A stretch of DNA of 64,000 nt from Zobellia barbeyronii (GTDB lineage: Bacteria > Bacteroidota > Bacteroidia > Flavobacteriales > Flavobacteriaceae), in contig NZ_JACATN010000002.1 in assembly GCF_018603515.1 (NCBI RefSeq), positions 868,001-932,000 of the forward strand, given 5' to 3'. Made by a program: the position numbers and the translations under genes. This document shows positions 7,129-36,280 of the stretch, one piece after another. The notes under the pieces were generated by a model. The model did no database searches. It was not told where the DNA came from and saw only the letters and a list, made by a program, of their open reading frames with translations. The first letter of the stretch is position 1. Every line of letters begins with the position of its first letter.

Positions 7129-7130
7129 TC

Positions 7131-9245: not shown

Positions 9246-9291
9246 CAAAAATAACTCCTCAAAAAAGGTTATGTATCCTGTACAGTGCTGT
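9246..9291 (-). promoter_or_regulatory. Operator and -7 box of the rhaM operon
   Basis: CCTGTACAGTGCTGT lies at 9277-9291. The -7 box TATTTTTG reads on the minus strand at 9253-9246. The gap is 23 nt, the same as at five other promoters in this window. The transcript would have a leader of roughly 145 nt before rhaM. The 351-bp space 9097-9447 holds only this promoter and the divergent one. Confidence 0.75.
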
Positions 9292-9340
9292 TAATCTCCA
9301 ATAATAAAAGACAGAGGCTGATAAAAGAAGTGGGGTATTG

Positions 9341-9386
9341 ACCACATAGTACAGGATACTTTTGAAATTTGAGCCCATTATCTTGC
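9341..9386 (+). promoter_or_regulatory. Operator and -7-like box of the sulfatase gene at 9448
   Basis: On the minus strand 9355-9341 reads CCTGTACTATGTGGT, a weaker second half than the other sites. Exactly 23 nt downstream lies TATCTTGC (9379-9386), a partial match to TAnnTTTG. Orientation relative to the gene is the same as at the other five promoters. Confidence 0.6.
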
Positions 9387-9447
9387 TGTAGAATGAAATT
9401 CTCTTGTTGTCAACAAGCTCTAGAGTATTAAAAACTAACGCCCTCCT

Positions 9448-10902
9448 ATGAAACATAAATTCTTTCACCAATATCTACCATTGATTTGCATATTATCCAT
9501 AGCAGTTTCTTGCAACGAAAAGAAAAAAGAAACGGTTGTAGAGTCTCAAGATAATAGTCGCCCTAATGTTCTTGTAATCCTTACGGATCAGTGGCGGGCT
9601 CAAGCTATGGGCTATGCAGGAGACCCTAATGTTAGTACTCCCAACCTAGATGAATTGGCAGCAGCGAGCGTAAATTTTAAAAATGCAGTTTCAGGTATGC
9701 CTGTGTGTTCACCTTTTAGAGCTTCACTCTTAACGGGACAACGCCCGTTGACACATGGAGTCTTCATGAACGATGTACAGCTAGACACCAATGCCGTGAC
9801 CATTGCCAAAGTATTCAATAAGGAAGGATATGATACTGGTTACATTGGTAAATGGCATTTAGATGGTCATGGGAGATTACAAAATGTTGCTCCCGGTGAA
9901 AGAAGGCAAGGATTTAAATTCTGGAAGGGCAATGAATGCACCCACGATTATAATGAATCCGTTTACTATGATAATGATGACCCGGACAGAAAAATATGGG
10001 ATGGCTATGATACTTTTAAACAGACCGATGCCGCCATTGATTATATTCAAAATAGAAACTCTTCTGAGAACCCCTATATGATGATTCTTTCCTATGGCAC
10101 TCCACATGCCCCATATCATACCGCTCCTGAGGAATACAGAAATAGGTTTGACCCAGCTAAGATTCAACTTCGCAGAAATGTACCTGATAACCTAAAGGAA
10201 CAGGCTAAGAAAGATTTAGCCGGGTATTACGCCCACATAGCCGCACTTGATGATATGATTGGTAAGCTTATTCAAAACTTGAGAGATTCCGGACAGTATG
10301 ACAACACCATTATTGTTTTTACTGCGGACCATGGCGATTTGTTAGGTTCTCACGGAGCCTATAAAAAGCAGCAGCCTTATGAAGAATCTGCACGTGTGCC
10401 CATGCTATATCATATTCCTGAAAAATTCAAAATCGATACTGGAGAAAGAAATGCGTTGATGAATTCCGAAGATATCATGCCTACTCTTTTGAGTCTGTGT
10501 GATATTTCTATACCAAATACGGTAGAGGGATTAGATTATAGACCTTATATGGAGGGAAAAGAACAAATAGGAGATGTAACTTTATTAACCTGTGTACAGC
10601 CCTTTGGCCAATGGAACAGGGTAAAATATGGTGGTAGAGAGTACAGAGCCATAATAACCCAACAGTACACTTATGCCAGAAGTTTGGAAGGCCCATGGTT
10701 ACTTTTTGATAATAAAAATGATCCATACCAGCTATATAATCTTGTAGGCAACGAAGGCGCCACTTCCTTGCAAGACAATATGGAAAAATTGTTATATGAA
10801 CGTTTGAAGGAAACCGGAGATGAATTTCTTCCCGGTTTGGAATACGTCAAAAAATGGGGTTATACATTGGATGAGACAGGCACTGTTCCTTATACCAATT
10901 AA
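9448..10902 (+). CDS. S1-family sulfatase, lipoprotein
   Basis: A 484-residue sulfatase with lipobox AVSC. The formylglycine motif is CSPFR, Cys about residue 87. The first metal-binding acidic pair is DQ instead of DD, and the later pair is ADHGD, which places it in a different S1 subgroup from the sulfatases at 3589 and 7131. GKWHLDGHG and PHAPYH complete the site. It is the only plus-strand enzyme gene of the degradative cluster and has its own operator/promoter, divergent from the rhaM operon. Substrate position is unknown. Confidence 0.87.
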   Translation: MKHKFFHQYLPLICILSIAVSCNEKKKETVVESQDNSRPNVLVILTDQWRAQAMGYAGDPNVSTPNLDELAAASVNFKNAVSGMPVCSPFRASLLTGQRPLTHGVFMNDVQLDTNAVTIAKVFNKEGYDTGYIGKWHLDGHGRLQNVAPGERRQGFKFWKGNECTHDYNESVYYDNDDPDRKIWDGYDTFKQTDAAIDYIQNRNSSENPYMMILSYGTPHAPYHTAPEEYRNRFDPAKIQLRRNVPDNLKEQAKKDLAGYYAHIAALDDMIGKLIQNLRDSGQYDNTIIVFTADHGDLLGSHGAYKKQQPYEESARVPMLYHIPEKFKIDTGERNALMNSEDIMPTLLSLCDISIPNTVEGLDYRPYMEGKEQIGDVTLLTCVQPFGQWNRVKYGGREYRAIITQQYTYARSLEGPWLLFDNKNDPYQLYNLVGNEGATSLQDNMEKLLYERLKETGDEFLPGLEYVKKWGYTLDETGTVPYTN

Positions 10903-10976
10903 CTATAAATCAATATCTTAAATAAAAAAAAGAAGATTTAAAAAGGTATGATGGTAGAAAAAAAATTATGCTTTTT

Positions 10977-11612
10977 TCATTCTTTCATGCCGTATTTGTA
11001 ACCAATTCGAAGATGAACATTGAAAACAAAGTCATTACCCATATGTCCAGCTTCCTTAACTGTTTTTCTTTTTTGAGTTTCTAAAATATCAAAACCTAAA
11101 CCAGCTCCTATTTCAAAATTCCAACGATAATTTATATTACGACGCATTCCCCATGTAGGTGTAATAAACAAACCTCCATTCGGTTCTTCCCCATCAAAAA
11201 CTAAAGGTTCCTCGCTATTTCCCGATGGTGAATATGCCAAAAATTTAGGATAATATTGAAAAGCAATCGTCACATAATTACCACTATTATGAAATGTATT
11301 GTTACTATTACCTATCCTTTTTCGAGAGTTATAATACCAGCGGGGTTCGAAAGTTAATACAGGTTGAAAAACTGGATAAAAATAATTATGACTCCGGGTT
11401 GCCTCCGCTCTATATACGTTTCTTTCGTAAGTGGGAGCTGCATAACCAACTTCAGTTCGAAGCGCCCAACGATGAACCAATTTTGATTCATTATGCCACC
11501 ATATACCTAATAATCCCGTTTGGATACCATTGATAGATCTATCAACAAGTTGTGCGTTGCTCGCAGAGCAAAACATAAGTAAAATCAGTACACTGATAAT
11601 GGAGTTTTTCAT
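10977..11612 (-). CDS. Predicted outer-membrane beta-barrel protein, unknown function
   Basis: A 211-residue protein with a signal peptide ending near SNA-QL. The mature part is rich in alternating aromatic and polar strands (NYVTIAFQYYPKF, YRWNFEIGAGLGF, DFVFNVHLRIGYKYG), as in small 8-stranded outer-membrane barrels. I do not recognise a specific family. It lies in the gap between two glycan-cluster transcription units, downstream of the Gfo/Idh terminator, so it has its own promoter or none of the shared operators. No regulon site is seen upstream. Confidence 0.55.
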   Translation of the reverse strand: MKNSIISVLILLMFCSASNAQLVDRSINGIQTGLLGIWWHNESKLVHRWALRTEVGYAAPTYERNVYRAEATRSHNYFYPVFQPVLTFEPRWYYNSRKRIGNSNNTFHNSGNYVTIAFQYYPKFLAYSPSGNSEEPLVFDGEEPNGGLFITPTWGMRRNINYRWNFEIGAGLGFDILETQKRKTVKEAGHMGNDFVFNVHLRIGYKYGMKE

Positions 11613-11766
11613 ATTTCAAATTGGTATTGGCTCTAACAGCAAAACGCAAAAAAAACCAACTTCGTATTCCAAAAAATTATAATAGAATTAACCATTCAGC
11701 AAATGAATTTCACTCATACGAAACTGTTATGTAAAGACTCTACTTAGATAAAAAAATGAAATTAAA

Positions 11767-11810
11767 AAATTCGGGGGTAAAATGACCAAAGCCACTTTAC
11801 CCCCGAATTT
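11767..11810 (-). terminator. Rho-independent terminator after the Gfo/Idh/MocA gene
   Basis: A perfect 15-bp stem (11767-11781 pairs with 11796-11810) contains a run of five G:C pairs. On the minus strand it is followed by a T-run. It lies 14 nt after the stop of the oxidoreductase gene. Confidence 0.85.
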
Positions 11811-11823
11811 AATATTTGAAAAA

Positions 11824-13161
11824 CTAAAGTTTTACATCCCAGCCTTTGGCGTATTCCCTACCCCATAAAGCCAATGCTTTACGATCTAGCATTCTTCCAG
11901 TTTTGGAGTCTATGTCAAAACCATTACCAATTCTATAGGCTACATTACCAAAGTGAACTAATGCCATACTTTTTGATGCATCATCTATTGGTGCTTGTAA
12001 AGTTTCTTTACCTCTAATGGTATTGAAAAAATTACCAACATGTATGGTAGTCATTCCGCCGCCGCCGCCAAGCTCAATTCCGCCTTCTTGCGTTTTTGCG
12101 TTAACAGTTTTTACCAAATTACCACCTCTGTCATAAAGCTTGTATAAGTTTCGGTTTACAAAGACACTACCTTCGCTACCATATATAATTGTACCACGAC
12201 CTCCACCATAGGTAGAATATCCATTTCTACTTTTACCATCCCATTTAATGGTCGTATTATTATCGAACTTAAAAGTAGCTTCCATAGTATCGTACATTTC
12301 CCAACCGTCATCTACAAAGGCTGATTTAATACCATCTGCCTCTACATGATTTGGAAAGTCTACTTGCAACGCCCAACGTGCTACATCTAATTCATGTGTA
12401 CCATTGTTACCTAATTCTGCCGTACCATAATTCCATCCGTACCAATGCCAATTGTAATTCCACGTTTCAGAAGTATAATCACGACGAACAGCGGGTCCCT
12501 GAAATAATTCCCAATCCAGACCTGCAGGAATGGGTGCTGCTTTTTGAAGTGGCACCTCTCCTCGTTTACTACTAAAAAAAGCAACCGCCTTATATGGCTT
12601 ACCGATTACACCATTATGAATTTGCCTTATAATATCAATGCTATGCTCCGCAGAACGTTGTTGGTTCCCCATTTGCACCACACGATCGTACTTTTTCTGG
12701 GCGGCAACAAGTAATTCATTTTCTGCCATGTTATGGCTACATGGCTTTTCTACGTAAACATGTTTTCCTTCCTTTAACGCCATTATAGAACCTGGAGCAT
12801 GCCAATGATCAGGAGTTAAGTTAAACAACGCATCTACTTTTTTATCTTCAAGAACTTTTCTAATATCGTTTTCAAGTTTTGGAGTATAACCCAATCTGGT
12901 AGACATTTCCGTAGCGGCTTTTACACGCTGACTCTCCATTACATCACAGAGGTATAACAGCTCTACATTATTACTCTTTAACTCTATTGGTGTATACATA
13001 GCACTAACACGGCGCCCCAGACCTGCAATGGCAACCTGAATCCTATCATTGGCGCCCATCACTTTTCTGTAACTCTTAGCCGATAAGCTAGAACTACCCA
13101 ATATAGCACCCGTAGTTCCCAATGCTGTTTTCTGAATAAAACTTCTTCTAGATGTTTTCAT
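11824..13161 (-). CDS. Gfo/Idh/MocA-family oxidoreductase, Tat-exported
   Basis: A 445-residue NAD(P)-dependent oxidoreductase with a twin-arginine signal (SRRSFIQK). It would therefore be folded with its cofactor and exported to the periplasm. The Rossmann motif is VAIAGLGRR, and the family Lys is in EKPCSHN. Relatives include GH109-type glycosidases, which use tightly bound NAD, and 3-keto-glycoside-forming dehydrogenases. It lies between the sulfatase-GH78 gene and an outer-membrane protein gene, within the rhamnose glycan cluster. Together with the DUF1080 gene at 17615 it suggests an oxidative glycoside-cleaving step (inference). Confidence 0.85.
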   Translation of the reverse strand: MKTSRRSFIQKTALGTTGAILGSSSLSAKSYRKVMGANDRIQVAIAGLGRRVSAMYTPIELKSNNVELLYLCDVMESQRVKAATEMSTRLGYTPKLENDIRKVLEDKKVDALFNLTPDHWHAPGSIMALKEGKHVYVEKPCSHNMAENELLVAAQKKYDRVVQMGNQQRSAEHSIDIIRQIHNGVIGKPYKAVAFFSSKRGEVPLQKAAPIPAGLDWELFQGPAVRRDYTSETWNYNWHWYGWNYGTAELGNNGTHELDVARWALQVDFPNHVEADGIKSAFVDDGWEMYDTMEATFKFDNNTTIKWDGKSRNGYSTYGGGRGTIIYGSEGSVFVNRNLYKLYDRGGNLVKTVNAKTQEGGIELGGGGGMTTIHVGNFFNTIRGKETLQAPIDDASKSMALVHFGNVAYRIGNGFDIDSKTGRMLDRKALALWGREYAKGWDVKL

Positions 13162-13317
13162 TATTGTTATTCTTTAATTTTAAAATCTTGTAATAAAAAG
13201 CGGTCTGAATGACCTTATAACAGGATATTGCCGGTTTTGGCTTCTCCAAAATTTGGCTAATCTTTATGCTTATGTTTTTATAAATGTACCTTTTACAATT
13301 AAAAAACTAAAGAAACT

Positions 13318-16300
13318 TTAAAAAGAATTAACTACTAATTTAATTTCATGCTTACCTGGTTCCAAACGTACAGAGCCAAAAGCAGCGTTTACTTTTTTAC
13401 CATTGTGCATGAGTTCTTTTCCTGGTGATGGAGCTATTTCAAATTCCGCAACCATATTAGCCGGTATTTGAATTTCGAAAATTTGAAGCCTAGGAGTTTC
13501 ATATTTGTAGCTTCCTTTTATCGTTCCTTTTATAGTCGGCACTTCAATACTACTATTTTTTAAATCGCTCATTTGAGGTTTGATAGTAGCAATTCCGAAT
13601 CCCGGTGTTTTAGGTTGAATTCCCCAAAGTCCACGTGGGATGGCATTAGCCGGCACAGCTCCCCAAGCATGGTTCCAATCTAGATTATTCTTATACTTCA
13701 AATCCCAAGCTTCCAAGGTCATAGTAGAACCAATACGGATCATATTGTACCAACTTCTATCACTTGTATCAGTTAACAGTTCCAAAGCATAATCTGCCGC
13801 CCCAGCATTATAAAGACCGTCCATTAAATATTGCGAACCGTAAACACTACACGCCATTCCACGTGACTTCACGTACTCCACAACAGAGGAAATATGTTCC
13901 TCAGGAACCATATTAAAAGCCAAGGGCAACATATTAGCATGTAAGGCAGCATGGTCAGTTCCTATACCGTCTACATAAATACCTCGTTCCGAATCAAACA
14001 TTTTTTCATTGACCGCTTTTTTAGCTTTTAAAGCACGAAGTTCAAAGTCTCTTGCTTCCTCTGTTTTACCTAAAACTTTTGCAAATTCGGACATGATATT
14101 CATATTCTGGTAATAGAATGCATTCACTACGGTATTATAATCTTTAAAAACATAGGCATCACGTTCTCCTTTATTTGATGGGTCTCCTCCCCAACCTGCA
14201 GATGGCCAATCTACAATATCCCTAAAGGTCTCCTTTAACTGTGGAGAAAAACCTAAATTCTTCATTAACTCAGGCGTCATTTTAGTAGAAGTAATCAACC
14301 CTTCTTCATTTGAAAGCTCATAAAGAGTTTTGTATTTTAACTGGTCATAATACTTCTCAATAAGCTCTGTATTTCCCGTATACATATAATCTGCATAAAA
14401 CATGAGCGCCACGTGCTGTTGCCATTCGGTAGGCCAGGTTGGGTGTTCCATAAAATATTCCATGGTCTGCCTTGCAATGGCATATTCTCGATCGGTGGTG
14501 TAATGGCTTAATTGATTCAAATACGCGTCTGCCTCATAAGGAATACGCTCACGATCACCATCTACATAAAGTCCATTAAAAGTAGTGGCCTTAATCGTGT
14601 ATTTACAGATTTCCCAAACTTGGTTCAAAATATCATCCGAGCTTTTGAAACTACTAGCGTCATCTTCCCAATAACTATGATGTGCTAATAATGTAAAATC
14701 TTCTGCTGTAACAGCTTCTTTTGCTCCATCTACCTCAACATATCTAAACGGCATTAAAACTGGAAAATCTTTTGGAAGCGGTAGCGCCTTGCCTGGTCTT
14801 GTATTCCTTTCATCTACTTGTACCTGAAGTTGGTATTCTGTTTGATCAGGGTTTACAGCCATTTTAATTTCTTGATATCTGATATGACTTCTGTGGAAAG
14901 GTGTTCTGTTGATGTTTTCACCTTCTAGCTGTTCTCCTATTCTAAAAATAAGCGTATCACTAACTTTAGCTTTATATGTAAAGTCTAAAGTTGCAAAAGC
15001 TGCTTTTCCAAAATCCATAAAATAGGTTTCACCTCTTTTTTCAAATTTGACTGGTTTTATTTTATCAATTTGAAAACTGTTGGGAGTGGTTATAGTAGCT
15101 TTAGGACTTCCCGTAGTAAAAAACTGACTTTGAGAATAGCGTGAAAGCCGATTGTCTTGATCCCAAATGCGTACTTTCCAGAAATAAGTCTCTCCGCTTT
15201 TCAACGCTGTACCTTCATGCTCTATTTCGGAAGAAGCGCTAGTTCTTATTTGCTTGCTATCCCAAACATCACCAATATTATTGGTAATGTTCTGTTTAGA
15301 TGAAGCAACCAATATTTGATAGGCCGATTGTGAAACCGCTCCGTCCGGCACAACCCATCCAAATTCTGGTTTAGTATCAATTACGGTAACCCCTTCTGTG
15401 TTTCGTATCCACTCCACAACCAAATCACTAGGACCTTTAGAATAGTCATCGGAAAGCTCAAGAATAAGGTCATTTGTTTTGTTGCGAAAAGCTGCTAACT
15501 TTTCGGCATATTTTGAATCTTTTGCCAAATTGTTAATCTCTTTAGGATCGTCTTCTAAATTGTAAAGTTCTTCAAAAGACTGGTCGTTGACATAACGGAA
15601 ATATTTCCAATTTTTGGTACGGATTCCTTCGCTTGGCGCAATATTATCAAACTCCCAAAGGTGCTCAATCAAGACGGTATCTCGCTCAAAGTCTTTCTTC
15701 GTTTTTTCTACTATAGGCATAAGACTTTTGCCTTGCCATGTTTTTGGTTGGGCAATTCCTGCTAAATCTAAAATAGTAGATGGTACATCTATATTCAACG
15801 CTAGAGCATCACTATCTTTTTGCCTTTTAACCCGTGGATCATATACAATTAAAGGCACCCGAACGGAATTATCATATAACAACCATTTCCCCGCAAGCTG
15901 GCGTTCACCTAAAAAGTAACCGTTATCTCCCATTAGAATAATAACCGTGTTTTCTGCAAGTCCCTTCTTCTCTAGCTCAGTCCTGATTTTGGCAATTTCC
16001 CGGTCTATTCCAGATATCATTCTATAATATCCTTTTACGCTATGCTGATATTTTTCCGGAGTATCATAACGCCACGTCCAACGTAAACGGTTAAAGCCGT
16101 CACGTACAAATTTAGGTTGAGCCTCAAAGTATTTGTCTTCTCCCAAATCTGCATCAGGCATATTTATATTCTGAAGCAAAGCATCTGACTCCGTTTGCCA
16201 GAAATATTGGTCTTCAGCCCCGTCATGGGCATGAGGAGCACTAAAACTCAAGGAAAGACAAAAAGGTTTGTCTGTTTTTACATCTGCAATAAAGTCAATA

Positions 16301-16839
16301 GCTTTTTGTCCTGTGTAGCGTGTTAAATGAACCGTGTCCTTACCTAAGGTTTTATAGTAATAACCACGCTTGTCTTTATATTCATTATTACGGTCATAAG
16401 ACTCATATTCATCAAACTGATTTTTTAGGTTATCATAACGGACTCCATATTTACCATAGAAACCAGTAAAATATCCATTCTCTTTTAAAATAGAAGGATA
16501 GGATTCAGCCATGTACGATTCTCTAATATTTCCTGTTTGAAAATTGAAATTGTGCGTACGTTCGTAAAGCCCTGTTAAAATGCTAGCTCTACTGGCGGCA
16601 CAGATTGGTGTGGTTACCATAGCATTCTCAAAATAGGTGCCTTTCTTAGCCAATTTATCCATTTCTGGAGTAGAAATAAGCTTGTTTCCCGCATAACCCA
16701 GTGCATCAAAACGCTGGTCATCCGTTAGAATAAAAATTATATTGGGCTTGTTTGCTTGTTGTTTCTGTACTGTTTTTTGTGCCTTTAGCGGTAGTATACA
16801 TCCGCAAAGAAAAATTAATGCCAAAACTGGTATTCTCAT
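13318..16839 (-). CDS. Bimodular S1 sulfatase - GH78 alpha-L-rhamnosidase
   Basis: A 1173-residue secreted fusion. A signal peptide is followed by an S1 sulfatase (residues about 30-465) with ILTDDQR, the formylglycine motif CAASR (Cys80), SAPHAHDG and LMGDNG. The second half (about 475-1173) is an alpha-L-rhamnosidase with an Fn3-like N-terminal domain ([12 protein letters not shown]) and the catalytic acidic motif [12 protein letters not shown] near residue 765, then a C-terminal beta-domain. One protein could desulfate and then release rhamnose. Similar fusions are known from ulvan loci of flavobacteria. It has its own operator promoter at 16914-16959. Confidence 0.9.
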
Positions 16840-16913: not shown

Positions 16914-16959
16914 CAAACTTATATGCTATAGAGACATTACCCATCCTGTGCTGTCCTGA
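16914..16959 (-). promoter_or_regulatory. Operator and -7 box of the sulfatase-GH78 gene
   Basis: CCTGTGCTGTCCTGA at 16945-16959 is a variant of the shared operator. TAAGTTTG on the minus strand (16921-16914) is a perfect -7 box. The gap is 23 nt, identical to the other regulon promoters. Confidence 0.75.
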
Positions 16960-17008: not shown

Positions 17009-17584
17009 TTAAGCTTTCTTTGTTATCACTTTAAGTATCCTGAGTATTTCGTCTACACCCATTCTTTCTGTATAGTTTGCTTCAACATGGGCTTCTTCAA
17101 TTGTTTGATTGGTGTTGATAATAAAAGTAGCCGGTATAGGAAGAGTTTTTGAACCGTCGCCATTTAGAAGTGTTAAATCACGTCGTGCATGATAATCCTC
17201 ACCCGGATCAAATTGAAGACCGTACGCTTTAATTACTTTCTGATCAGCATCACTAAGTACTTCAAAATCTAAATTATTCTTTTCTTTTGCCGTTAGTGCA
17301 CTATCCGGACTTTGCGGACTGATTGCTAAAAATGAAGCTCCAAAAGATTTAATTTCCGATAGTTTACTTTGTACTTCTTTAAGGTCTAAATTGCAAATAG
17401 GACACCATTCACCACGGTAAAATTTAATAACCACAATGCCTGATTTTAGCATTTCAGATAGCGTAATATCTGTACCTACAGCATTTGGCAAAGTAAAATC
17501 TGGAGCTTTATCACCAACAGATAATCCTTGGAGATGACTTGCATTTGAAATAACTAACTTTTGAAAATCTTGTAATTCACTCAT
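17009..17584 (-). CDS. Peroxiredoxin-like (AhpC/TSA) protein
   Basis: A 191-residue thioredoxin-fold protein of the AhpC/TSA type. It has GDKAPDFTLPNA at the start of the fold and a WCPICN active site after VIKFYRGE. There is no signal peptide, so it is cytoplasmic. It may reduce peroxides, but the CxxC rather than a classical peroxidatic TxxC context leaves a thiol-oxidoreductase role possible. It begins 30 bp after the DUF1080 gene and is probably co-transcribed with it. Why such a protein sits in a glycan locus is not clear. Confidence 0.75.
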   Translation of the reverse strand: MSELQDFQKLVISNASHLQGLSVGDKAPDFTLPNAVGTDITLSEMLKSGIVVIKFYRGEWCPICNLDLKEVQSKLSEIKSFGASFLAISPQSPDSALTAKEKNNLDFEVLSDADQKVIKAYGLQFDPGEDYHARRDLTLLNGDGSKTLPIPATFIINTNQTIEEAHVEANYTERMGVDEILRILKVITKKA

Positions 17585-17614
17585 ATAATTATCTTTCTTT
17601 ACGAATTTATACTA

Positions 17615-18436: not shown

Positions 18437-18480
18437 ATTTTTTTTTCGATTATCACGGTTCTACTATTTGCAATCAAAGA

Positions 18481-18514
18481 AACCTAGGTAACCTTTTGAT
18501 AAGTTACCTAAGTT
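18481..18514 (-). terminator. Hairpin in the leader of the DUF1080 gene
   Basis: An imperfect stem of about 12 bp (18481-18492 with 18503-18514, built on TAGGTAAC/GTTACCTA). On the minus strand it is followed by a T-rich stretch. It may terminate or attenuate transcription coming from susCD. Confidence 0.45.
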
Positions 18515-18586
18515 TAAGACAAACTTAATCCACTCTATAGTTATCGGTAATTTCCAACAACAAATTTTCTACAGATTCTTTTTATG

Positions 18587-18618
18587 ATTAAAGGCCATGG
18601 ATATCCATGACCTTTAAT
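18587..18618. repeat. 32-nt inverted repeat downstream of susD
   Basis: ATTAAAGG and CCTTTAAT flank the 14-bp palindrome CATGGATATCCATG, giving an almost perfect hairpin 35 nt after the SusD stop. There is no T-run on the minus strand, so it is more likely a 3'-end-stabilising or processing hairpin than a terminator. Confidence 0.55.
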
Positions 18619-18652
18619 TGTTTGCATTCTAAATCGTTCCTGGTTAATTTAA

Positions 18653-20149: not shown

Positions 20150-20207
20150 TTTTTCAGTTTTAAAATTTGTCGAAAGTGAAATATTTTTGGACATCATAGT
20201 TTTTGAT

Positions 20208-25645: not shown

Positions 25646-25674
25646 CAAAATACACATATTTATTTTTTACCTAA

Positions 25675-25720
25675 GCGGTACAGTACAGGACACAAAGCTT
25701 TATTTCATAATCTACTTTTG
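25675..25720 (+). promoter_or_regulatory. Operator and -7 box of the rhamnose catabolic operon
   Basis: On the minus strand 25689-25675 reads CCTGTACTGTACCGC. TACTTTTG, a perfect -7 box, lies at 25713-25720. The gap is 23 nt as at the other promoters. The -7 box sets the transcript start near 25726 and excludes the upstream TTG at 25718 as the rhaEW start. Confidence 0.8.
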
Positions 25721-25744
25721 CTATCAAACATAATAACCCTTCAA

Positions 25745-27850: not shown

Positions 27851-27880
27851 TTAGTTCTGAGTTAGTTAGTTTGTTTTTTT

Positions 27881-27912
27881 TACTTCCATGGGTCGTTTAA
27901 CCCATGGAAGTA
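27881..27912 (+). repeat. 13-bp perfect hairpin between rhaEW and rhaI
   Basis: TACTTCCATGGGT (27881-27893) pairs perfectly with 27900-27912, leaving a 6-nt loop, and is followed by TTTTT. It looks like an attenuator or partial terminator inside the operon. It covers the first possible ATG of rhaI (27904), which argues for a start further downstream. Confidence 0.7.
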
Positions 27913-27933
27913 TTTTTCAAAATGAAATACTTT

Positions 27934-29214
27934 ATGAAAATAGATAAAGGTCAACTTGGTGACACCAACAAAACAGGAATCACCGAGCATAATGAGCGTT
28001 ACGATTTTTTAGCCTATACACTTTTAAAAAAGGGTAAAGATGTTAACGCCATAGTTAAAAAATTACAGGATTTTCAGGTAGCCATACCAAGTTGGGCATT
28101 GGGTGCAGGTGGTACGAGGTTCGGACGTTTTGGATTTCAGGGTGAGCCCTCAAGTCTAGAGCTAAAAATAGATGATGTTGGTTTAATTCATTCACTTACG
28201 CAAAGTGCAGGAGCCATATCATTACACATACCTTGGGATGTCCCTACAGATTACAATGCCATTAAAGATTTGGCAAATTCTCATGACATCCTATTTGATG
28301 CCGTGAATTCAAACACTTTTCAGGATCAAAAGAACAGTAAGGAGAGTTATAAGTTTGGCTCTTTAAGTAATACCAGCAAAGCTGCTCGTGAACAGGCTGT
28401 TGCACATAACATTGAAGTAGTTAAGATTGGAGAGAAATTAGGTTCAAAAAGCTTAACTGTTTGGTTGGCAGACGGTTCTAACTTCCCTGGGCAAACTAAT
28501 TTTCAATCGGCATTACAAAATACAGAAGATAGCTTAAAAGACATATACAAAACACTTCCTGAGGACTGGAAAATGTTTATTGAATATAAGCCTTACGAGC
28601 CCAATTTCTACAGTACGGTAATCCAGGATTGGGGAACTTCATTTATGCTAGCTAATGCTTGTGGAGAAAAAGCGTATACTTTAGTAGATTTAGGACACCA
28701 CCTTCCTAACACTAATATTGAACAAATAGTTTCAACTTTAATGTTAAAAGGAAAGCTAGGCGGATTCCATTTTAATGATAGTAAATATGGCGATGATGAC
28801 CTTACCGTTGGTAGTGTAAAGCCTTATGCGCTATTCCTAATTTTCAATGCCTTGGTTTATGGAATGGAAAACAATCCACAAAACCCTTATCCGGCTTGGA
28901 TGATAGATGCCAGTCATAATATAAAAGACCCATTAGAAGATTTAATTCAATCTTTAGAGGCTATACAAGAGGCACATGCAAAAGCATTACTTGTAGATCA
29001 AAAACTACTACTTGAAGCGCAACTGAATCATGATGTTGTAAAATGTCAAGAGATTCTCCAAGATGCTTATCGCACAGATGTTAGACCGTTGTTGCAAAAA
29101 GCAAGGTTGAACAGAGGTGGTGCTTTAAACCCAATTGATGCTTATAGATCTTTAAAAGTGAGAGAAAATTTAATTAAGGAAAGAGGTGCTAATTCAGTAG
29201 CTTCCGGACTATAA
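27934..29214 (+). CDS. rhaI: L-rhamnose isomerase (RhaI type)
   Basis: A 426-residue TIM-barrel sugar isomerase of the RhaI type, as in Pseudomonas, rather than the RhaA type. It has VPSWALGAGGTRFGRF, HIPWD, and metal ligands in IEYKPYEP, LVDLGHH and FHFNDSKYGDDDLTVGS. It converts L-rhamnose to L-rhamnulose. ATGs at 27904 and 27922 are in frame, but the first lies within a strong hairpin. MKIDKGQ at 27934 matches where relatives begin. It lies 10 bp before rhaB. Confidence 0.9.
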   Translation: MKIDKGQLGDTNKTGITEHNERYDFLAYTLLKKGKDVNAIVKKLQDFQVAIPSWALGAGGTRFGRFGFQGEPSSLELKIDDVGLIHSLTQSAGAISLHIPWDVPTDYNAIKDLANSHDILFDAVNSNTFQDQKNSKESYKFGSLSNTSKAAREQAVAHNIEVVKIGEKLGSKSLTVWLADGSNFPGQTNFQSALQNTEDSLKDIYKTLPEDWKMFIEYKPYEPNFYSTVIQDWGTSFMLANACGEKAYTLVDLGHHLPNTNIEQIVSTLMLKGKLGGFHFNDSKYGDDDLTVGSVKPYALFLIFNALVYGMENNPQNPYPAWMIDASHNIKDPLEDLIQSLEAIQEAHAKALLVDQKLLLEAQLNHDVVKCQEILQDAYRTDVRPLLQKARLNRGGALNPIDAYRSLKVRENLIKERGANSVASGL

Positions 29215-29224
29215 TTATACCATA

Positions 29225-30598
29225 ATGAAAGTTAACGTAACGGCCGTATTTGATATTGGAAGGACCAACAAAAAGTTCTTTCTTTTTGATGAGAATTTTC
29301 AAGAAGTTCATCGAGAATATAATCGTTTTGATGAAATTGAAGATGAGGACGGCTACCCTACTGAAAATCTTGCTGCTCTAGAAGTATGGGCAAAAGAGGT
29401 TTTTGATACCATGCTCAATTCTGAGAAATATGAAATTATAGCTTTAAATTTTTCATGTTACGGAGCAAGCTGGGTACATATTGATGAAAAAGGAAAACCA
29501 CTTACGCCGCTTTACAACTATATGAAGCCGTTAAAAGATGATGTTTTTACTTCTTTTAATAAAGCTTACGGACCGGAGAAAGAATTATCAAGAGTTACAG
29601 GCTCTCCAAAACTGGGTATGTTAAATACAGGTATGCACTTGTATTGGTTGAATAATACTCAGCCAGAAACTTTTAAAAAAATAAAATACTCCCTGCATCT
29701 ACCTCAATACCTCAGCTATTTATTTACAGGTGTTCCCGTAAGTGAATATACAAGTATTGGTTGTCATACAATGCTTTGGGACTTTGAGAAAAAAGACTAT
29801 CATGCATGGGTTTATCAAGAGGGGATTGATGAAAAATTACCCCCTATTGAATCTTCCAGAAAAACGACCCTCGTAAATTACAAGGGTAAAACAATTAAAA
29901 TGGGTGTTGGAATCCACGATAGTTCTTCTGCCCTAATTCCGTATATCAGAAGTGTAACCAAACCGTTTTTGCTAATTTCTACGGGAACATGGAGCATTTC
30001 AATTAACCCGTTTAACCAAGGGATGCTTACTCCAGATGATATTGAGAACGACTCGTTGTTCAATATGAGAATTGACGGTAGTCCGGTAAAAGTTTCTAGG
30101 TTATTCCTAGGTAACGAATACAAACTTCAGGTTAAAGCGCTGTCTGACCACTTTAATGTGTCACCAGATACTCATAAAAAAGTAAAATTTGACCAGGACA
30201 CCTTTTTTGAAATCAATAAAGATTTTGTCCACATGTTCAAATGGTCTACCATGTCTTCCGAAGATATGCCTAATGAGACCACCATACCTTATGACAAATT
30301 TGAGCATGCCTACCACCAACTAATGTTGGAATTGGTTTTGCTTCAAGAGAAAAGTATTAGAGCGGCAATAGGAAGTTCTGAAATAAACCAACTTTATGTT
30401 GACGGGGGTTTTAGTGACAATGAAGTCTATATTCAATTGCTTTCTCAATTTATGGGGAATATGAAGTTGAGTACCACAGATTCTTCTTTGGGATCTGCCT
30501 TAGGAGCCGCTATCGTTATTTCTGATGTTGTATTAGAATCTACTTTTTTAGACAAAAATTACGCTGTTAAAAACCATCGTCCATTTATCCTTAAATAA
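29225..30598 (+). CDS. rhaB: L-rhamnulokinase, FGGY family
   Basis: A 457-residue FGGY-family sugar kinase. The N-terminal phosphate loop is FDIGRTNKKFFLFD, the middle has LISTGTWSISINP and the C-terminal ATP-binding part is LYVDGGFSDNEVY. It phosphorylates L-rhamnulose at O1. Gaps of 10 bp on each side place it in the rhaEW-rhaI-rhaB operon. Kinases of this family can be fucose- or rhamnose-specific; the neighbours decide for rhamnulose. Confidence 0.88.
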   Translation: MKVNVTAVFDIGRTNKKFFLFDENFQEVHREYNRFDEIEDEDGYPTENLAALEVWAKEVFDTMLNSEKYEIIALNFSCYGASWVHIDEKGKPLTPLYNYMKPLKDDVFTSFNKAYGPEKELSRVTGSPKLGMLNTGMHLYWLNNTQPETFKKIKYSLHLPQYLSYLFTGVPVSEYTSIGCHTMLWDFEKKDYHAWVYQEGIDEKLPPIESSRKTTLVNYKGKTIKMGVGIHDSSSALIPYIRSVTKPFLLISTGTWSISINPFNQGMLTPDDIENDSLFNMRIDGSPVKVSRLFLGNEYKLQVKALSDHFNVSPDTHKKVKFDQDTFFEINKDFVHMFKWSTMSSEDMPNETTIPYDKFEHAYHQLMLELVLLQEKSIRAAIGSSEINQLYVDGGFSDNEVYIQLLSQFMGNMKLSTTDSSLGSALGAAIVISDVVLESTFLDKNYAVKNHRPFILK

Positions 30599-30607
30599 AC
30601 CAATCAT

Positions 30608-31756
30608 ATGACTAAGGAATTCAACCCGGCTTACCCTTCAATGGATGATTTGAGAAACAAAGCTATGAAGCGTATACCTAAATTCGCTTTTGAATATTTA
30701 GATGGAGGCTGTAATGAAGATGTAAGTATTACCAGAAACACTTCGGAAATACGTGAAGTGCAACTACAACCTAGATATTTAAGAAACCAAGGAATTAGCT
30801 CATCTAAGACAAAGGTGTTGGGTATGGAGTTTGATGCGCCTTTTGGGATTGCTCCCGTTGGTCTTCAAGGTTTAATGTGGCCTAATTCTCCTGAAATTTT
30901 AGCTAAATCGGCTTTCAAAAATAACATCCCTTTTATTCTTAGTACGGTGACCACAATGAGTATTGAACGGGCAAGTGAATTGACTGAAGGCAATGCATGG
31001 TTTCAGTTGTACAATCCTGCTGAGGATGCTTTAAGAGACGATATTATCAATAGAGCTGAAGCTGCTGGTTGTCCCGTATTAGTATTGCTTTGTGATGTAC
31101 CCACTTTTGGCTACAGACCAAGAGATATTCGTAATGGATTAGCCTTACCACCAAAAATGTCGTTGACCAATATTTTACAAATTTTAGGCAAACCCACCTG
31201 GGCACTGAATACTTTAAAATATGGCCAACCCACTTTTGAAACATTAAAACCCTATACACCAGAAGGACTCAACTTAAGACAGTTGGGACAGTTTATGGAC
31301 AAAACATTTTCAGGTCGATTAAACGAAGAACGAATAAAACCTATACGTGATAAATGGAAAGGGAAACTAGTCCTCAAAGGAGTTGCCTCTGAACAAGATA
31401 CCCAAGATGCCATTCGTATGGGATTTGATGGCATTATTGTTTCTAATCATGGCGGCAGACAATTAGATGCTGCTCAATCTACTATAAACTCACTTTCTGA
31501 AATAACAGAAAAGTATGGCGACCAGATAGAAATTATGATGGATAGTGGGTTACGTTCAGGACCGGACATTGCCAGAACTATGGCTAGCGGGGCTAAATTC
31601 ACCTTTATGGGGCGTTCTTTTCTTTATGGTTGTGGTGCTCTAGGAGATAATGGTGGCGACCATACGATATCCATGTTAAAAACGCAGTTCAAACAGGTTA
31701 TGGACCAGTTATGTTGTGAACGTGTCGAAGACTTACCAAATCACCTTATTAAATAA
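30608..31756 (+). CDS. FMN-dependent alpha-hydroxy-acid dehydrogenase (L-lactate dehydrogenase-like)
   Basis: A 382-residue TIM-barrel flavoenzyme. FAFEYLDGGCNEDV lies near the N-terminus. The catalytic His and Arg are in SNHGGRQLDAAQ, and the phosphate-binding part is MDSGLRSGPDIARTMASGA. It should oxidise L-lactate, released by RhaEW, to pyruvate and pass electrons to the respiratory chain. This completes rhamnose breakdown to DHAP and pyruvate within one operon. A different 2-hydroxy acid cannot be excluded. Confidence 0.85.
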   Translation: MTKEFNPAYPSMDDLRNKAMKRIPKFAFEYLDGGCNEDVSITRNTSEIREVQLQPRYLRNQGISSSKTKVLGMEFDAPFGIAPVGLQGLMWPNSPEILAKSAFKNNIPFILSTVTTMSIERASELTEGNAWFQLYNPAEDALRDDIINRAEAAGCPVLVLLCDVPTFGYRPRDIRNGLALPPKMSLTNILQILGKPTWALNTLKYGQPTFETLKPYTPEGLNLRQLGQFMDKTFSGRLNEERIKPIRDKWKGKLVLKGVASEQDTQDAIRMGFDGIIVSNHGGRQLDAAQSTINSLSEITEKYGDQIEIMMDSGLRSGPDIARTMASGAKFTFMGRSFLYGCGALGDNGGDHTISMLKTQFKQVMDQLCCERVEDLPNHLIK

Positions 31757-31769
31757 ACCAACCACCTCT

Positions 31770-33188
31770 ATGAGCCAAAATCATCACGAAGAAGAACTAA
31801 TAGAAGAATTGGTTGGTGGCGAATATGAAAGAGAGCCTGTACCCACATCAAAACTAAAAAGCTGGAAAAGCTTTCTAGGAATGTATGCCGGAGAGCATGC
31901 TGCAGGAACCGAATTTATGATTGGCCCATTATTTTTGACTGCTGGGGTTAGTGCTTTTGATTTGATTGTAGGCTTATTGATAGGAAATCTTCTTGCCGTA
32001 TTAAGCTGGAGGTTTCTAACCGCAAAAATAGCCGTTGAAAATAGATTGACACTCTACTATCAATTTGAAAAAATCTGTGGTAAGAAACTGGTCATTGGTT
32101 ATAATCTAGCCAACGGCATATTATTCTGTTTTCTTGCTGGCGCCATGATAACTGTATCAGCCACGGCTGTTGGTATTCCCTTTGATATGGAAATGCCAAA
32201 ACTAACCGACACCACACCTAATGGAGCAACCTGGGTGATTATTGTAGTACTTATAGGAGCCGTAATTTCACTGATTGCCTCAAAGGGATATGATACCGTA
32301 TCCAAGGCTGCAAATTGGATGTCTCCCATTATTGTACTTGCCTTTTTAGCCTGTGGAATTGTTGCTTTAAATCAGCTAGGAGTTAAGAGTTTTACGGATT
32401 TTTGGAATATATGGGGAGAAGGATCAGAACCCTTTCCCGGACAATTAAAATACACCTTTTGGCACGTAGTGATATGGTCATGGTTTGCTAATGCCGCTAT
32501 GCACGTAGGTATGTCTGATTTATCAGTTTTTAGATTCGCGAAAACAGCAAATGCCGGATGGACCACCACTGCAGGAATGTACGTGGGGCATTATATGGCT
32601 TGGATTGCCGCTGCACTACTTTATGCCGTCTATTTAAAGTCGCCCGAGGCGCAAGCTTTTCTTTCTAATGGAGAAGCACCACCGGTAGCGCCAGGACCTT
32701 TGGCAAACAATGCTATTGGAATATTTGGAATTATTGCAGTAGTCTTAGCAGGCTGGACAACGGCAAACCCTACGATTTACAGAGCTGGATTAGCCTTTCA
32801 GGCCATTATGCCTAAACTGTCTACATTTTGGGTAACCATTATAGCGGGAACAGTAGCTACAATTGCCGGATTGTTTCCCGCTTTTGCCATGAAATTATTA
32901 GGCTTTGTTGCGCTATACGGATTTATTCTAGCTCCTTTTGGTGCCGTAATCGTATTTGAGCACTTTTTCCATAAACAAGCGGGAATCGTTAAAAACTATG
33001 CCGAAGTAGCAAATATTAAATTCAATAAGTCGGTGTTCTTGGCGTGGGCCATCAGTTTTGGATTGTTTTACTTTATTTCAATTCAATTTGATGTATTCCT
33101 ATCCTTTGTAACACTACCTGCATGGTTGCTCTGCGGAGCTTTGTTTTTAGTATTTAGCAAATCATTTCAGAAAAAAACTGCTAATTAA
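31770..33188 (+). CDS. NCS1-family (cytosine/purine permease-like) transporter, probable rhamnose importer
   Basis: A 472-residue inner-membrane protein with about 12 hydrophobic helices and an NCS1-like start (SWKSFLGMYAGEHAAGTEFMIGPLFLTAG). The start was set at 31770 (MSQNHHEEE), 13 bp after the dehydrogenase stop. The longest frame would overlap that gene and starts with a non-typical leader. Known NCS1 members carry nucleobases, vitamins or hydantoins. As the last gene of the rhamnose operon, and with no other importer in the window, it is the best candidate for L-rhamnose uptake (inference). Confidence 0.8.
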   Translation: MSQNHHEEELIEELVGGEYEREPVPTSKLKSWKSFLGMYAGEHAAGTEFMIGPLFLTAGVSAFDLIVGLLIGNLLAVLSWRFLTAKIAVENRLTLYYQFEKICGKKLVIGYNLANGILFCFLAGAMITVSATAVGIPFDMEMPKLTDTTPNGATWVIIVVLIGAVISLIASKGYDTVSKAANWMSPIIVLAFLACGIVALNQLGVKSFTDFWNIWGEGSEPFPGQLKYTFWHVVIWSWFANAAMHVGMSDLSVFRFAKTANAGWTTTAGMYVGHYMAWIAAALLYAVYLKSPEAQAFLSNGEAPPVAPGPLANNAIGIFGIIAVVLAGWTTANPTIYRAGLAFQAIMPKLSTFWVTIIAGTVATIAGLFPAFAMKLLGFVALYGFILAPFGAVIVFEHFFHKQAGIVKNYAEVANIKFNKSVFLAWAISFGLFYFISIQFDVFLSFVTLPAWLLCGALFLVFSKSFQKKTAN

Positions 33189-33205
33189 AAATGTAAATCT
33201 TGTCC

Positions 33206-34192
33206 TTAGTAATTCGCATAAACTATAGAAAAAGTACCGTCAGTAACTTCTGTGGTTGTGCTGTCGGTATTATCTATTCCTGTTAGACTAAATTTTCCTT
33301 TTAACAGGGTTAGTTGCGGCCCTACCTCTTTTGCAGTAATAATCAAAGTACCAGAGCATTCATACGATACAAATTCATGAGTAATTACATCATAACGCGA
33401 AAGGGCAACTGAATTAACACTACTGTCTGCATTAAAAATGAAAGTACCTTCTTCCGTTTCCTCATGGTTAATCATGATAGATATTAGGTGTTCATTATCA
33501 CTTAATTGGTGAAGTGTTATGTCAGAACCACTAACAAATCCTCCTGTCTGAAAGCTACCTGTTTCATACCAAGATTCTCCATCTATTTGGGCATAAGCTC
33601 CCAAATTTGCAATACTAGGTTCCGTTTCAACGTAACTTGCTATAAAACTCCCTTCCACTTCATGAGAGGCAGATTCTATATCATACTCATCCTCGTATAA
33701 TTTTCCTGAGAATTGAACCTCAACCTTTTTATTAACTTCATCGATATTAACCAACTCAAACGTGAAAAAGTTAGACGTGAAGTAGGCAAAATTTCCTGAT
33801 GAAGGAAAATCAAAATCAGTTGTTGAATATGAAGATATTTTTCCTTGGTCTCCAAATGTATTGAACAGCAAATTAATACTGTTCCCATCTGAACCCGAAG
33901 CGGTGATGCTTAATGTATTTTCTACTTTTTGTCCAGTCCAGTTGTCTATGCTTACTGTTTCTCCCTTATAGACATAATTAAAAAAATCTTCCTCGGTAAT
34001 CGCAACATTATCTTCAGAATCTTCTTCTTCAATTTCTTCCTCATCAATAACTTCATCATCTACAGATTCTTCATCTTCAATAATTTCTTGATTTTCCACT
34101 GTATTTTCATCAAGGACAGAATCTATGTCATTAGAACAAGAGACAATAAAAAGAATCAAAAAAAAATGGAAAACTAGCTTTGTATTTTTCAT
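33206..34192 (-). CDS. Lipoprotein with acidic linker, unknown function
   Basis: A 328-residue lipoprotein (lipobox LFIVSC). The start is placed at 34192 (MKNTKLVFHFF), 19 codons into the longest frame, because the signal peptide begins there. Residues about 25-65 are a Glu/Asp-rich tether. The rest is predicted beta-rich, with repeated aromatic and Gly/Ser-rich strands, and ends in a DGTFSIVYANY strand. I recognise no family. It is convergent with the transporter gene and 166 bp downstream of the sulfatase gene, so it may be co-transcribed with it. It could be a surface glycan-binding protein (weak inference). Confidence 0.55.
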   Translation of the reverse strand: MKNTKLVFHFFLILFIVSCSNDIDSVLDENTVENQEIIEDEESVDDEVIDEEEIEEEDSEDNVAITEEDFFNYVYKGETVSIDNWTGQKVENTLSITASGSDGNSINLLFNTFGDQGKISSYSTTDFDFPSSGNFAYFTSNFFTFELVNIDEVNKKVEVQFSGKLYEDEYDIESASHEVEGSFIASYVETEPSIANLGAYAQIDGESWYETGSFQTGGFVSGSDITLHQLSDNEHLISIMINHEETEEGTFIFNADSSVNSVALSRYDVITHEFVSYECSGTLIITAKEVGPQLTLLKGKFSLTGIDNTDSTTTEVTDGTFSIVYANY

Positions 34193-34358
34193 AGGGACAG
34201 GTAAAGTTATTTTTAAATCTGGGTCTTTATCTGAACTATAACGCACCAAGGATTTTGGTATTGCTTTATCTGTTAATTTTCAATCGAGTGTTTTAACTAA
34301 GTTCTTTATTGACATCTAACTTTACTACTTCCGATTGTGAGCTCCCCTTTTGAGGGAA

Positions 34359-36113
34359 TTACAATTCTTTCTCTATTACTTTACTTGGCACATAACCAAT
34401 TCTATATGCTTGCGCCATAACCTTACTTCCTGACGGAATTTGAAATGGCTTTTGATAAATGCTCCATGCTTTTGGAATAACTCCTTTGCTATCAATAATT
34501 TTATATCCCAACGATGCGCCTTCAGTAGAACATCTCATTGTAATTACATTATCATTAGATTCCATTTTGGGGTCTGAAGTTATAGGCTGGCTGGCTGCTC
34601 CGTTCCATAACTTAGTAATCAAGTCTCTTTCTGGAAGACTGGGGTCATCCCCTATCTCACTAAGCCACTCATCCATTTCCGTTCGTAACTCTTTTAGTTT
34701 TTTATCATAAGTAGGATCTTGGGCCAAATTGTTTACTTCGTACGGATCTGTCCTACAATCATATAATTCCTCGGGCTGCTTACTTTCCCTAAACCAAAGA
34801 GATTGTATGCTATCTAAACTACCCTCATCACGTAAGCGCAACAGCTCTTGCATAGTCGGTATTCTTTCTCTGTATTCAACAGGCAAATAATATCCTTGGT
34901 TAGGTCTATAGTTTCGGATATATTTAAACCGGTCATCACGTACAGCACGAATTGCATCTGTAAACCCATCAAAACGGTCTGCTGCACCATGAATATATTC
35001 TCGTTCATTTTTAGATTTATACTTCCCTAAAAAAGCTTGTCCCTGCATATATGACGGTGGTTCAATCCCTACCAAAGAAAGAAGTGTAGGAGCAAAATCT
35101 ACAAAACTGAGTAGTTCATCATCTTTGGTCTCAGAATGTTGCTTATTTGGAAATCTAATAATCATAGGAGTATTTAACCCCGAATCATAAACCAAACGCT
35201 TCTCCCTAGGTAACGGTCCTCCATGATCTCCGTAGAAAAAAATAATCGTATTTTCCAAAAGTCCATCTTCCTCCAACTGTTTCAATACTGCCCCAACTTG
35301 CTTATCCATTTCAGCAATATTGTTGTATAACTTCCACATATCACGACGCACTGTAGGAGTATCTGGCAGATAAGGAGGAATAGAAAATTCTGTGTCTTTG
35401 GATAGGTGGATAGGTGTTTCCTCTTCTGACATGCGACCCCCTGCCCAAGTATAGGTTGTATCCCCTGCTTGATAATGTCTCGTTTCTATATTTCTAAAAC
35501 CATAAGGTTCAAATAATCCAGACTCATGTGTTTCGGTAAAATTGAAAACCGAGAAAAAAGGTTGATTATCGGCTTTATTTCTCCAATGTGCATATGGGCT
35601 ACTTTCATCCCAAGCAGTTTTAGGAGCTTTAAATTGATAGTCTTCTTTATCGTTATTGGAACAGTAATATCCATTCATCCGAAGTAATTCACTTACCATA
35701 CGAGTTTCTGACGGTGGAACGGCCCCATAAGAAGGTAACCCTGTAACCTCTGTATACGAAGTAGTTCGCATACCATTGGCACCAATACTCGTTGGGTACA
35801 TTCCAGTGGTAATGGCTGCCCTACTAGGGGCACAAACTCCCGAAGTTGAATACAAATTAGGGTATACTACACCCTCTTTAGCCAAACGACTCAAATTAGG
35901 AGTTACTATAGTAGAGTCTCCAAAGGATGGAATGTAAGGACCCATATCTTCTGTAACCAACCACAAAATATTAGGCCGTTTGGGCAATTCTATTTCTGAA
36001 GAAACGGCAACTTCTTTTCCCCCTTTTTTAGTTTTTGTTTGACATCCATTTAAAAATATAAAAACAACACTAAAGGACAGTAAAGTCCGCAAGAATGAGA
36101 TATACTTGTTCAT
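34359..36113 (-). CDS. S1-family sulfatase with C-terminal beta-domain, lipoprotein
   Basis: A 584-residue sulfatase with lipobox FLNGC. The formylglycine motif is CAPSR, Cys about residue 94. The metal pair is ED (VTEDMG) and the second is GDHGG; THESG and PREKRLVYDSG lie at the active site. The last 75 or so residues (from about SQPITSDPKM) look like a chitobiase-C/Fn3-type domain, as found at the end of some sulfatases and hexosaminidases. The gene is separated from the others by the rhamnose operon, but its promoter (36235-36280) carries the shared operator. Confidence 0.87.
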   Translation of the reverse strand: MNKYISFLRTLLSFSVVFIFLNGCQTKTKKGGKEVAVSSEIELPKRPNILWLVTEDMGPYIPSFGDSTIVTPNLSRLAKEGVVYPNLYSTSGVCAPSRAAITTGMYPTSIGANGMRTTSYTEVTGLPSYGAVPPSETRMVSELLRMNGYYCSNNDKEDYQFKAPKTAWDESSPYAHWRNKADNQPFFSVFNFTETHESGLFEPYGFRNIETRHYQAGDTTYTWAGGRMSEEETPIHLSKDTEFSIPPYLPDTPTVRRDMWKLYNNIAEMDKQVGAVLKQLEEDGLLENTIIFFYGDHGGPLPREKRLVYDSGLNTPMIIRFPNKQHSETKDDELLSFVDFAPTLLSLVGIEPPSYMQGQAFLGKYKSKNEREYIHGAADRFDGFTDAIRAVRDDRFKYIRNYRPNQGYYLPVEYRERIPTMQELLRLRDEGSLDSIQSLWFRESKQPEELYDCRTDPYEVNNLAQDPTYDKKLKELRTEMDEWLSEIGDDPSLPERDLITKLWNGAASQPITSDPKMESNDNVITMRCSTEGASLGYKIIDSKGVIPKAWSIYQKPFQIPSGSKVMAQAYRIGYVPSKVIEKEL

Positions 36114-36234
36114 TTTTTAGATTTTATTTTAATGCTTGGCTGTTTAAGACTAAAAAGTGGTATTTGCTTCCTCCATTTTAATTGTTCACTGAATATAACA
36201 ATTAAACTATTTAATCATTATAACCCACCACAAC

Positions 36235-36280
36235 CAAATATAATTTCTCTATCTGTTTTACCTGTCCTGTACTGTGCCGT
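36235..36280 (-). promoter_or_regulatory. Operator and -7 box of the sulfatase gene at 34359
   Basis: CCTGTACTGTGCCGT at 36266-36280 and TATATTTG on the minus strand (36242-36235), 23 nt apart. This brings the distant sulfatase gene into the regulon. The rest of the 378-bp space 36114-36491 shows nothing else I can name. Confidence 0.78.

Follow-up and report, generated by a model that had tools for sequence, protein, structure and literature searches.

The 64,000-nucleotide (nt) stretch of the Zobellia barbeyronii genome analysed here (the window; contig NZ_JACATN010000002.1, positions 868,001 to 932,000) carries six promoters in which a repeated sequence element lies at exactly the same distance from the -7 box. 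The regulon signal is real, precise and widely conserved, and it comes with a strong candidate regulator, a chimera that joins a GntR winged helix to a LacI-type sugar-binding domain and is encoded at 24522-25568. We consider it probable that the six sites are operators of a single regulon for rhamnose or rhamno-glycan use, and that the chimera binds them and activates the six operons in response to rhamnose or a close product.

The first-pass annotation of this DNA had listed six 15-mers, each built of two half-sites and located 23 nt from a -7 box. All six are found in place, and each ends exactly 23 nt ahead of its box. Inspection of the sequence also bears out that every site points in the same direction relative to its own gene and that the half-sites are offset by 10 base pairs (bp). 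The operators and boxes are as follows, in site order.

9273 to 9292, minus strand: operator of the rhaM operon (AACAGCACTG TACAGGATAC; sequence and matrix scan)
9246 to 9253, minus strand: -7 box TATTTTTG of the rhaM operon (23 nt from the 15-mer)
9340 to 9359, plus strand: operator of sulfatase 9448 (GACCACATAG TACAGGATAC; sequence and matrix scan)
9379 to 9386, plus strand: box TATCTTGC of sulfatase 9448, which fits TAnnTTGY (sequence; SM5 motif of PMC9723704)
16941 to 16960, minus strand: operator of the sulfatase-GH78 operon (CTCAGGACAG CACAGGATGG; sequence and matrix scan)
16914 to 16921, minus strand: -7 box TAAGTTTG of the sulfatase-GH78 operon (sequence)
23398 to 23437, minus strand: four tandem 10-bp units ahead of susC (TACAGGATAG TACAGGACAC TACAGCATGG TACAGGATGA; sequence and matrix scan)
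23371 to 23378, minus strand: -7 box TATATTTG of the susC operon (sequence and genome pattern search)
25674 to 25693, plus strand: operator of the rhaEW operon (AGCGGTACAG TACAGGACAC; sequence and matrix scan; 57 of 61 family promoters)
25713 to 25720, plus strand: -7 box TACTTTTG of the rhaEW operon (sequence and genome pattern search)
36262 to 36281, minus strand: operator of sulfatase 34359 (TACGGCACAG TACAGGACAG; sequence and matrix scan)
36235 to 36242, minus strand: -7 box TATATTTG of sulfatase 34359 (sequence and genome pattern search)

TAnnTTTG stands exactly 23 nt beyond 4 of the 44 TACAGG sequences on both strands of the window (binomial P ~3e-8), a count that leaves out two of the sites, which have CACAGG or a box other than TAnnTTTG. 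A weight matrix was derived from 66 sites found in other genomes, and its eight top matches in the window are the six sites and the two upstream tandem copies at susC. The weakest of the six is the site at 16945. The box TATCTTGC need not be a degenerate TAnnTTTG, because it fits TAnnTTGY, the SM5 box, which in Flavobacterium psychrophilum has been attributed to an alternative sigma factor (PMC9723704).

The arrangement was also sought in the genome as a whole. The pattern GTACAGG-N10..40-TAnnTTTG has 12 matches in the 5-Mb genome, with spacings of 15, 35, 15, 23, 23, 23, 23, 37, 36, 30, 36 and 13. All four matches at 23 fall in this locus, whereas the spacings of the remaining eight are scattered. 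A looser pattern (up to three mismatches) gives 21 matches versus 6 in a backward control. Six of these are the known sites, and the other 15 comprise 11 within open reading frames (ORFs), including one (L026) in the transporter gene at 31716-33188, and four that are intergenic. One intergenic match (L036; C22:1000001-1000043, minus strand, ~68 kb past the window) appears convincing as a genuine further site, because the Zobellia uliginosa ortholog of its gene (L124; 83% identity over 460 residues; cytochrome c domain) has the same site ahead of it. The remaining intergenic matches (L038, L034 and L032) are doubtful as sites.

Conservation was followed in the best 80 of 582 loci that encode GntR relatives, each taken with at most 10 kb of flanking DNA on either side. 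Among the 152 occurrences of GTACAGGA in these 80 loci, a perfect box lies at spacing 23 for 33, at 43 for three and at 33 for one. When one mismatch in the box is allowed, 70 lie at 23 and none at 22 or 24, and the next spacings are 43 (8), 40 (7), 21 (5) and 5 (5). The small excess at 43 and 33 corresponds to two helical turns and one helical turn away, as extra tandem units would give. Other box types found at 23 after GTACAGGA are TAnnTTAG (16), TAnnTTCG (9), TAnnTTTA (6), TAnnATTG (2) and TAnnTTGY (1), and thus the last type, seen once in 152, is rare in the regulon. Of the 35 exact TACAGG matches at 23, two fall within ORFs and the other 33 lie in intergenic DNA no more than 300 nt from an ORF start, a position shared by 10 of the 26 matches at other spacings. 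Removal of near-identical copies left 67 sites (from 77) and 66 sites (from 75), and the 67 aligned sites probably include a few chance matches.

The promoters of rhaEW were approached from the other side, with the best operator match found first in the upstream DNA and the box sought afterwards. This sample holds 61 of the 63 copies in 249 family genomes; one copy at a contig start (G002) and one fragment (G207) were left out. The best box lies exactly at 23 in 55 of the 61 promoters and two more also have a one-mismatch box there, which brings the total to 57. In the four promoters that have no box at 23 (G247, G037, G127 and G024), rhaEW is not immediately beside a GntR gene, and the same is true of at least eight conforming promoters. 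Eight conforming genomes (G061, G071, G110, G115, G134, G152, G159 and G164) have their nearest close ortholog of the GntR gene more than 10 kb off or on another contig. Because the operator is still at 23 in these genomes, the arrangement is not merely inherited as one short piece of DNA, and it is as expected of a trans-acting protein.

The aligned sites read TACRGTAYAG/TACAGGATAS, and the operator appears to be best described as a 10-bp direct repeat. Column similarity for direct repeats, scored for periods up to 15, is clearly positive at periods 5 and 10, about zero at 15 and negative at every other period between 4 and 14. The score totals 12.5 (mean 0.62) for period 5 and 9.0 over 15 column pairs (mean 0.60) for period 10. 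A palindrome was also considered and is disfavoured, because the best of all centres (-2.0, CRGTAY-A-GTACAG) totals 5.0 over 10 pairs, which is below the direct repeats. The four tandem units at the susC promoter likewise favour a direct repeat, and further 10-bp copies extend the operator at 4 of the 66 sites.

In Flavobacterium psychrophilum, the box is located at -12 to -5 from mapped transcript starts (PMC9723704). The boundary between the two units is found 29-30 nt ahead of the box start in the aligned sites and, if the F. psychrophilum box position is carried over, the units would cover -51 to -32, with their junction at -41.5. A centre at -41.5 is the classical position for a class II activator. 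The TTG of a -33 element, sought at N17-21, is present at 0 of 66 sites, but it is uncommon at generic boxes too (10 of 109), which makes its absence too weak to count as evidence. The invariant distance, the -41.5 centre and the missing -33 TTG fit the activator proposed in the first-pass annotation; activation itself is a role that we infer.

The candidate regulator gene adjoins rhaEW and is divergent from it.

24522 to 25568, minus strand: candidate regulator of 348 amino acids with a GntR winged helix and a LacI-type sugar-binding domain (Pfam, model, fold search and co-occurrence)

Pfam recognizes a GntR domain (2.2e-9, residues 17-80) and a Peripla_BP_3 domain (1.4e-7) in the protein, and its DNA-binding domain is related to that of AraR (4egy, E 5.9e-6). 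The model has a mean pLDDT (predicted local distance difference test) score of 86.5, with RbsR (9e-14), SghR and LacI as the best folds in a Foldseek search. The best named matches are from Z. amurskyensis (97%) and Z. uliginosa (95%). Close orthologs, defined by E<=1e-100, are present in 54 of the 249 family genomes. The promoter pattern (up to one mismatch) occurs in 50 of these 54 genomes (181 sites) versus 16 of the 195 others (20 sites), and the latter count is near the level of a backward control, which gives 18 matches in the 249 genomes. The four ortholog genomes that lack the pattern (G049, G154, G173 and G217) have an operator at 23 ahead of rhaEW that carries more mismatches. Two close GntR paralogs are adjacent (~0.1-1.4 kb) in five genomes (G163, G132, G044, G153 and G070), where heteromers might form.

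The operator also varies with the branch of the GntR protein. Loci of diverged GntR proteins (39-43% identity) have sites at 23 in four of seven cases, and five of the six sites read TACAGA rather than TACAGG. In clade B, which we define as chimeras sharing at least 50% identity with the one in locus L189, a 10-bp direct repeat of different sequence is located upstream of the chimera's own gene in 11 of 11 regions. The clade B loci (L189-L191, L193, L194, L196, L198-L200, L308 and L309) carry CCTACTAGTA/CCTACYAGTT-like 10-bp repeats at this position. When the DNA upstream of 43 diverged GntR genes was searched blind for periods, period 10 was strictly best in 17, of which 11 belong to clade B, and the rest mostly gave nothing clear. 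The repeat-plus-box scan of 34 loci around diverged homologs gave no peak at 23. The first-pass annotation had left the choice between a GntR and an AraC-type regulator undecided, and the comparative evidence points to the GntR/LacI-type chimera and not to an AraC-type protein.

The region from 2.5 to 36.1 kb is, by domain scans of its genes, a locus devoted to rhamnose and to a sulfated glycan that contains rhamnose. It codes for an L-rhamnose mutarotase, five sulfatases (one fused to a GH78 rhamnosidase), GH97 and GH43 proteins, a SusC/SusD pair and a rhaEW-isomerase-kinase-lactate dehydrogenase-like operon. Six putative operons take in 20 of its 22 genes, and the exceptions are gntR and a Ppx/GppA-like gene. 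The count of 22 is the ORF list minus two short ORFs nested inside others, and operon membership was inferred from ORF order.

2510 to 9096, minus strand: rhaM, sulfatase, GH97, sulfatase and GH43, one putative operon (ORF list and domain scan)
9448 to 10902, plus strand: sulfatase (domain scan)
10977 to 16839, minus strand: sulfatase-GH78 fusion, GFO/IDH oxidoreductase and a 211-residue protein with no Pfam match, putative operon (ORF list and domain scan)
17009 to 23303, minus strand: SusC, SusD, 3-keto-disaccharide hydrolase domain protein and AhpC/TSA protein, putative operon (domain scan)
25718 to 33188, plus strand: rhaEW, rhamnose isomerase, rhamnulokinase-like kinase, flavin mononucleotide (FMN)-dependent (lactate) dehydrogenase and an unnamed transporter-like protein, putative operon (domain scan)
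33206 to 36113, minus strand: sulfatase and a 347-residue protein with no Pfam match, putative operon (domain scan)

The mechanically called TTG start of rhaEW at 25718 overlaps the -7 box of the same gene, and an in-frame ATG at 25745 seems the likelier start. A tyrosine recombinase/integrase gene is located just past the locus (38412-39773) and is perhaps a trace of mobility. Zobellia species are associated with seaweed.

A similar range of genes follows the sites in other genomes. Genes downstream of the sites code for RhaT, three GH78-type rhamnosidases, sulfatases, GH5, GH39, GH43 and GH88 proteins, as well as a carbohydrate esterase, a GDSL lipase, two ECF (extracytoplasmic function) sigma factors, a second GntR regulator and SusC-like proteins. 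Twenty further sites were picked by hand, not at random, from listed genomes with many sites; of 44 sites taken up, one has no ORF within 600 nt. Pfam scans of 20 downstream proteins gave a match for 18, whereas SusC-like proteins beyond this set were judged by the start of the protein alone. The sites ahead of the ECF sigma genes (L277 and L278) and the second GntR gene (L272) hint at a regulatory cascade. One protein family with no Pfam match recurs behind sites L270, L125, L134, L171 and L175, and the last gene of the rhaEW operon codes for a member of the same family, as read from the shared peptide HAAGTEFMIGPLFL. This 490-residue transporter-like protein (31716-33188), kept behind sites in other genera (L270, L134 and L125), is a possible rhamnose importer. 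The rhamnose/glycan regulon put forward in the first-pass annotation is therefore well supported: at the original stringency the pair is confined to the locus, it is kept at the great majority of rhaEW promoters, and elsewhere the sites precede RhaT, GH78, sulfatase, GH43, GH88 and similar genes.

In the mechanism that we favour, the chimera would bind with one subunit per 10-bp unit, head to tail, over about -51 to -32. The bound protein would then assist RNA polymerase at promoters with a -7 box and no -33 element. Binding of rhamnose or a close product by the LacI-type domain would cause the six operons to rise together. Several observations weigh against this model. Known AraR proteins are repressors. 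The smaller box excess at spacing 40 (7 of 152 GTACAGGA, up to one mismatch) is unexplained, and the palindrome mean per column (0.50) is near the direct-repeat means. The change to TACAGA is based on six sites in four of seven loci. Among class-level loci outside the genome itself, 0 of 25 have a site at 23 and most show no clear 10-bp repeat.

The main rival to activation is that the same GntR-LacI protein acts as a repressor, which would block the -33 zone when sugar is absent and leave when rhamnose is present. AraR and most GntR regulators do repress, the sites overlap the -33 zone, and clade B operators upstream of their own gene are ~16-20 nt from the box (as read by eye), which resembles autorepression. 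A repressor needs no invariant distance, yet 23 nt is kept in 57 of 61 rhaEW promoters and no GTACAGGA of the 152 has a box at 22 or 24. The -33 TTG missing from all 66 promoters also speaks against repression, though most generic boxes lack it as well. On balance we judge a repressor to be unlikely.

An AraC- or DeoR-type regulator encoded elsewhere in the genome might instead bind the sites, with the GntR gene merely travelling with the rhamnose genes. The RhaR protein of Bacteroides is of AraC type, DeoR-type rhamnose regulators bind two direct repeats with a 10-11 bp period (PMC3870299), and rhaEW is present in all 54 ortholog genomes, so co-occurrence alone cannot single out GntR from rhaEW. 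The change of operator letters with diverged GntR proteins and the 10-bp repeats that other branches carry upstream of their own gene do single out GntR, if more weakly. Furthermore, the 21-bp periodicity of AraC sites (PMC3870299) is not that of the 10-bp units seen here, and a Pfam scan of 30 window proteins, the candidate included, found no AraC or DeoR domain. This makes a regulator of either type a rather improbable explanation. We give still less credence to a model in which a special sigma factor reads the repeat as a promoter element, so that it would not be an operator at all. The strict distance and orientation to the -7 box, the two ECF sigma genes behind sites elsewhere and the one TAnnTTGY box in the window are what such a model would draw on. 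However, the majority of boxes match the primary-sigma TAnnTTTG or differ from it by a single letter, conservation extends over 20 bp and is continued in places by further 10-bp copies, and site occurrence follows the GntR gene, all of which makes this explanation most improbable.

The analysis yields a candidate regulator together with its operator and a rule, namely the repeat followed after 23 nt by TAnnTTTG, that is precise enough to predict regulon members by pattern search in dozens of genomes. If the activator model holds, rhamnose or a close product might license a whole sulfated-glycan locus; the control of a polysaccharide pathway by a monosaccharide has been called uncommon (PMC12125979). 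The findings also suggest that AraR-like proteins became activators in Bacteroidota. A broader proposal, which we offer tentatively, is that the GntR-LacI chimeras of Bacteroidota constitute one class of activators that respond to sugars; they would bind head to tail to 10-bp direct repeats, in fixed register, at promoters lacking a -33 element, such that a unit of one helical turn might serve as both operator and -33 substitute. The rhamnose branch might then govern whole sulfated-glycan loci across Flavobacteriaceae, and the extra units at susC might tune output.

Among known systems, AraR of Bacillus subtilis has palindromic operators and is a repressor that is released by L-arabinose. Proteins of the AraR subfamily combine a GntR winged helix with a GalR/LacI-type sugar domain and control sugar and polysaccharide genes (PMC4494728). 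The candidate has both the N-terminal GntR winged helix and the C-terminal GalR/LacI-type domain and, as judged by its domains, would belong with this subfamily. It differs in that its operator appears best described as a direct repeat in fixed promoter register, in the predicted activation and in its rhamnose rather than arabinose context; the palindromic operators and repressor role of AraR are not evident here. Regulators of the MocR subfamily (GabR, PdxR and TauR) also have a GntR winged helix, lie divergent to their target operons, and are activators that bind direct repeats one or several helix turns apart (PMC5320631). The candidate shares with them the winged helix and would resemble them in its divergent target operon, its direct repeats and its predicted role as an activator. 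However, MocR proteins have an aminotransferase-like domain where the candidate has a LacI-type domain, and Pfam and NCBIfam scans of the candidate found no aminotransferase-like C-terminal domain. FarR, NagQ and NanR are GntR repressors that act on direct-repeat sites (PMC4494728), but these have FadR/HutC-type effector domains.

Described rhamnose regulators include RhaR/RhaS (AraC family), a DeoR-family RhaR with 10-11 bp direct repeats, and the AraC-type Bacteroides RhaR BT3768 (PMC3870299, PMC3878776). They control L-rhamnose catabolism, as is predicted for the candidate, and differ from it in protein family. Those of AraC type also have a direct-repeat periodicity of 21 bp, unlike the period of 10 (and 5) found here among the periods of up to 15 that were scored. 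The text of PMC3870299 names no GntR rhamnose regulator. The Bacteroides proteins FucR (BT1272) and ManR (BT2103) are also GntR-family monosaccharide regulators in Bacteroidota (PMC3878776). They can be likened to the candidate by family and predicted role. Dudek in 2020 is said to have described a GntR repressor for alginate in Z. galactanivorans. In the open-licence literature we found no description of a GntR-type rhamnose regulator or of such an operator in Flavobacteriia.

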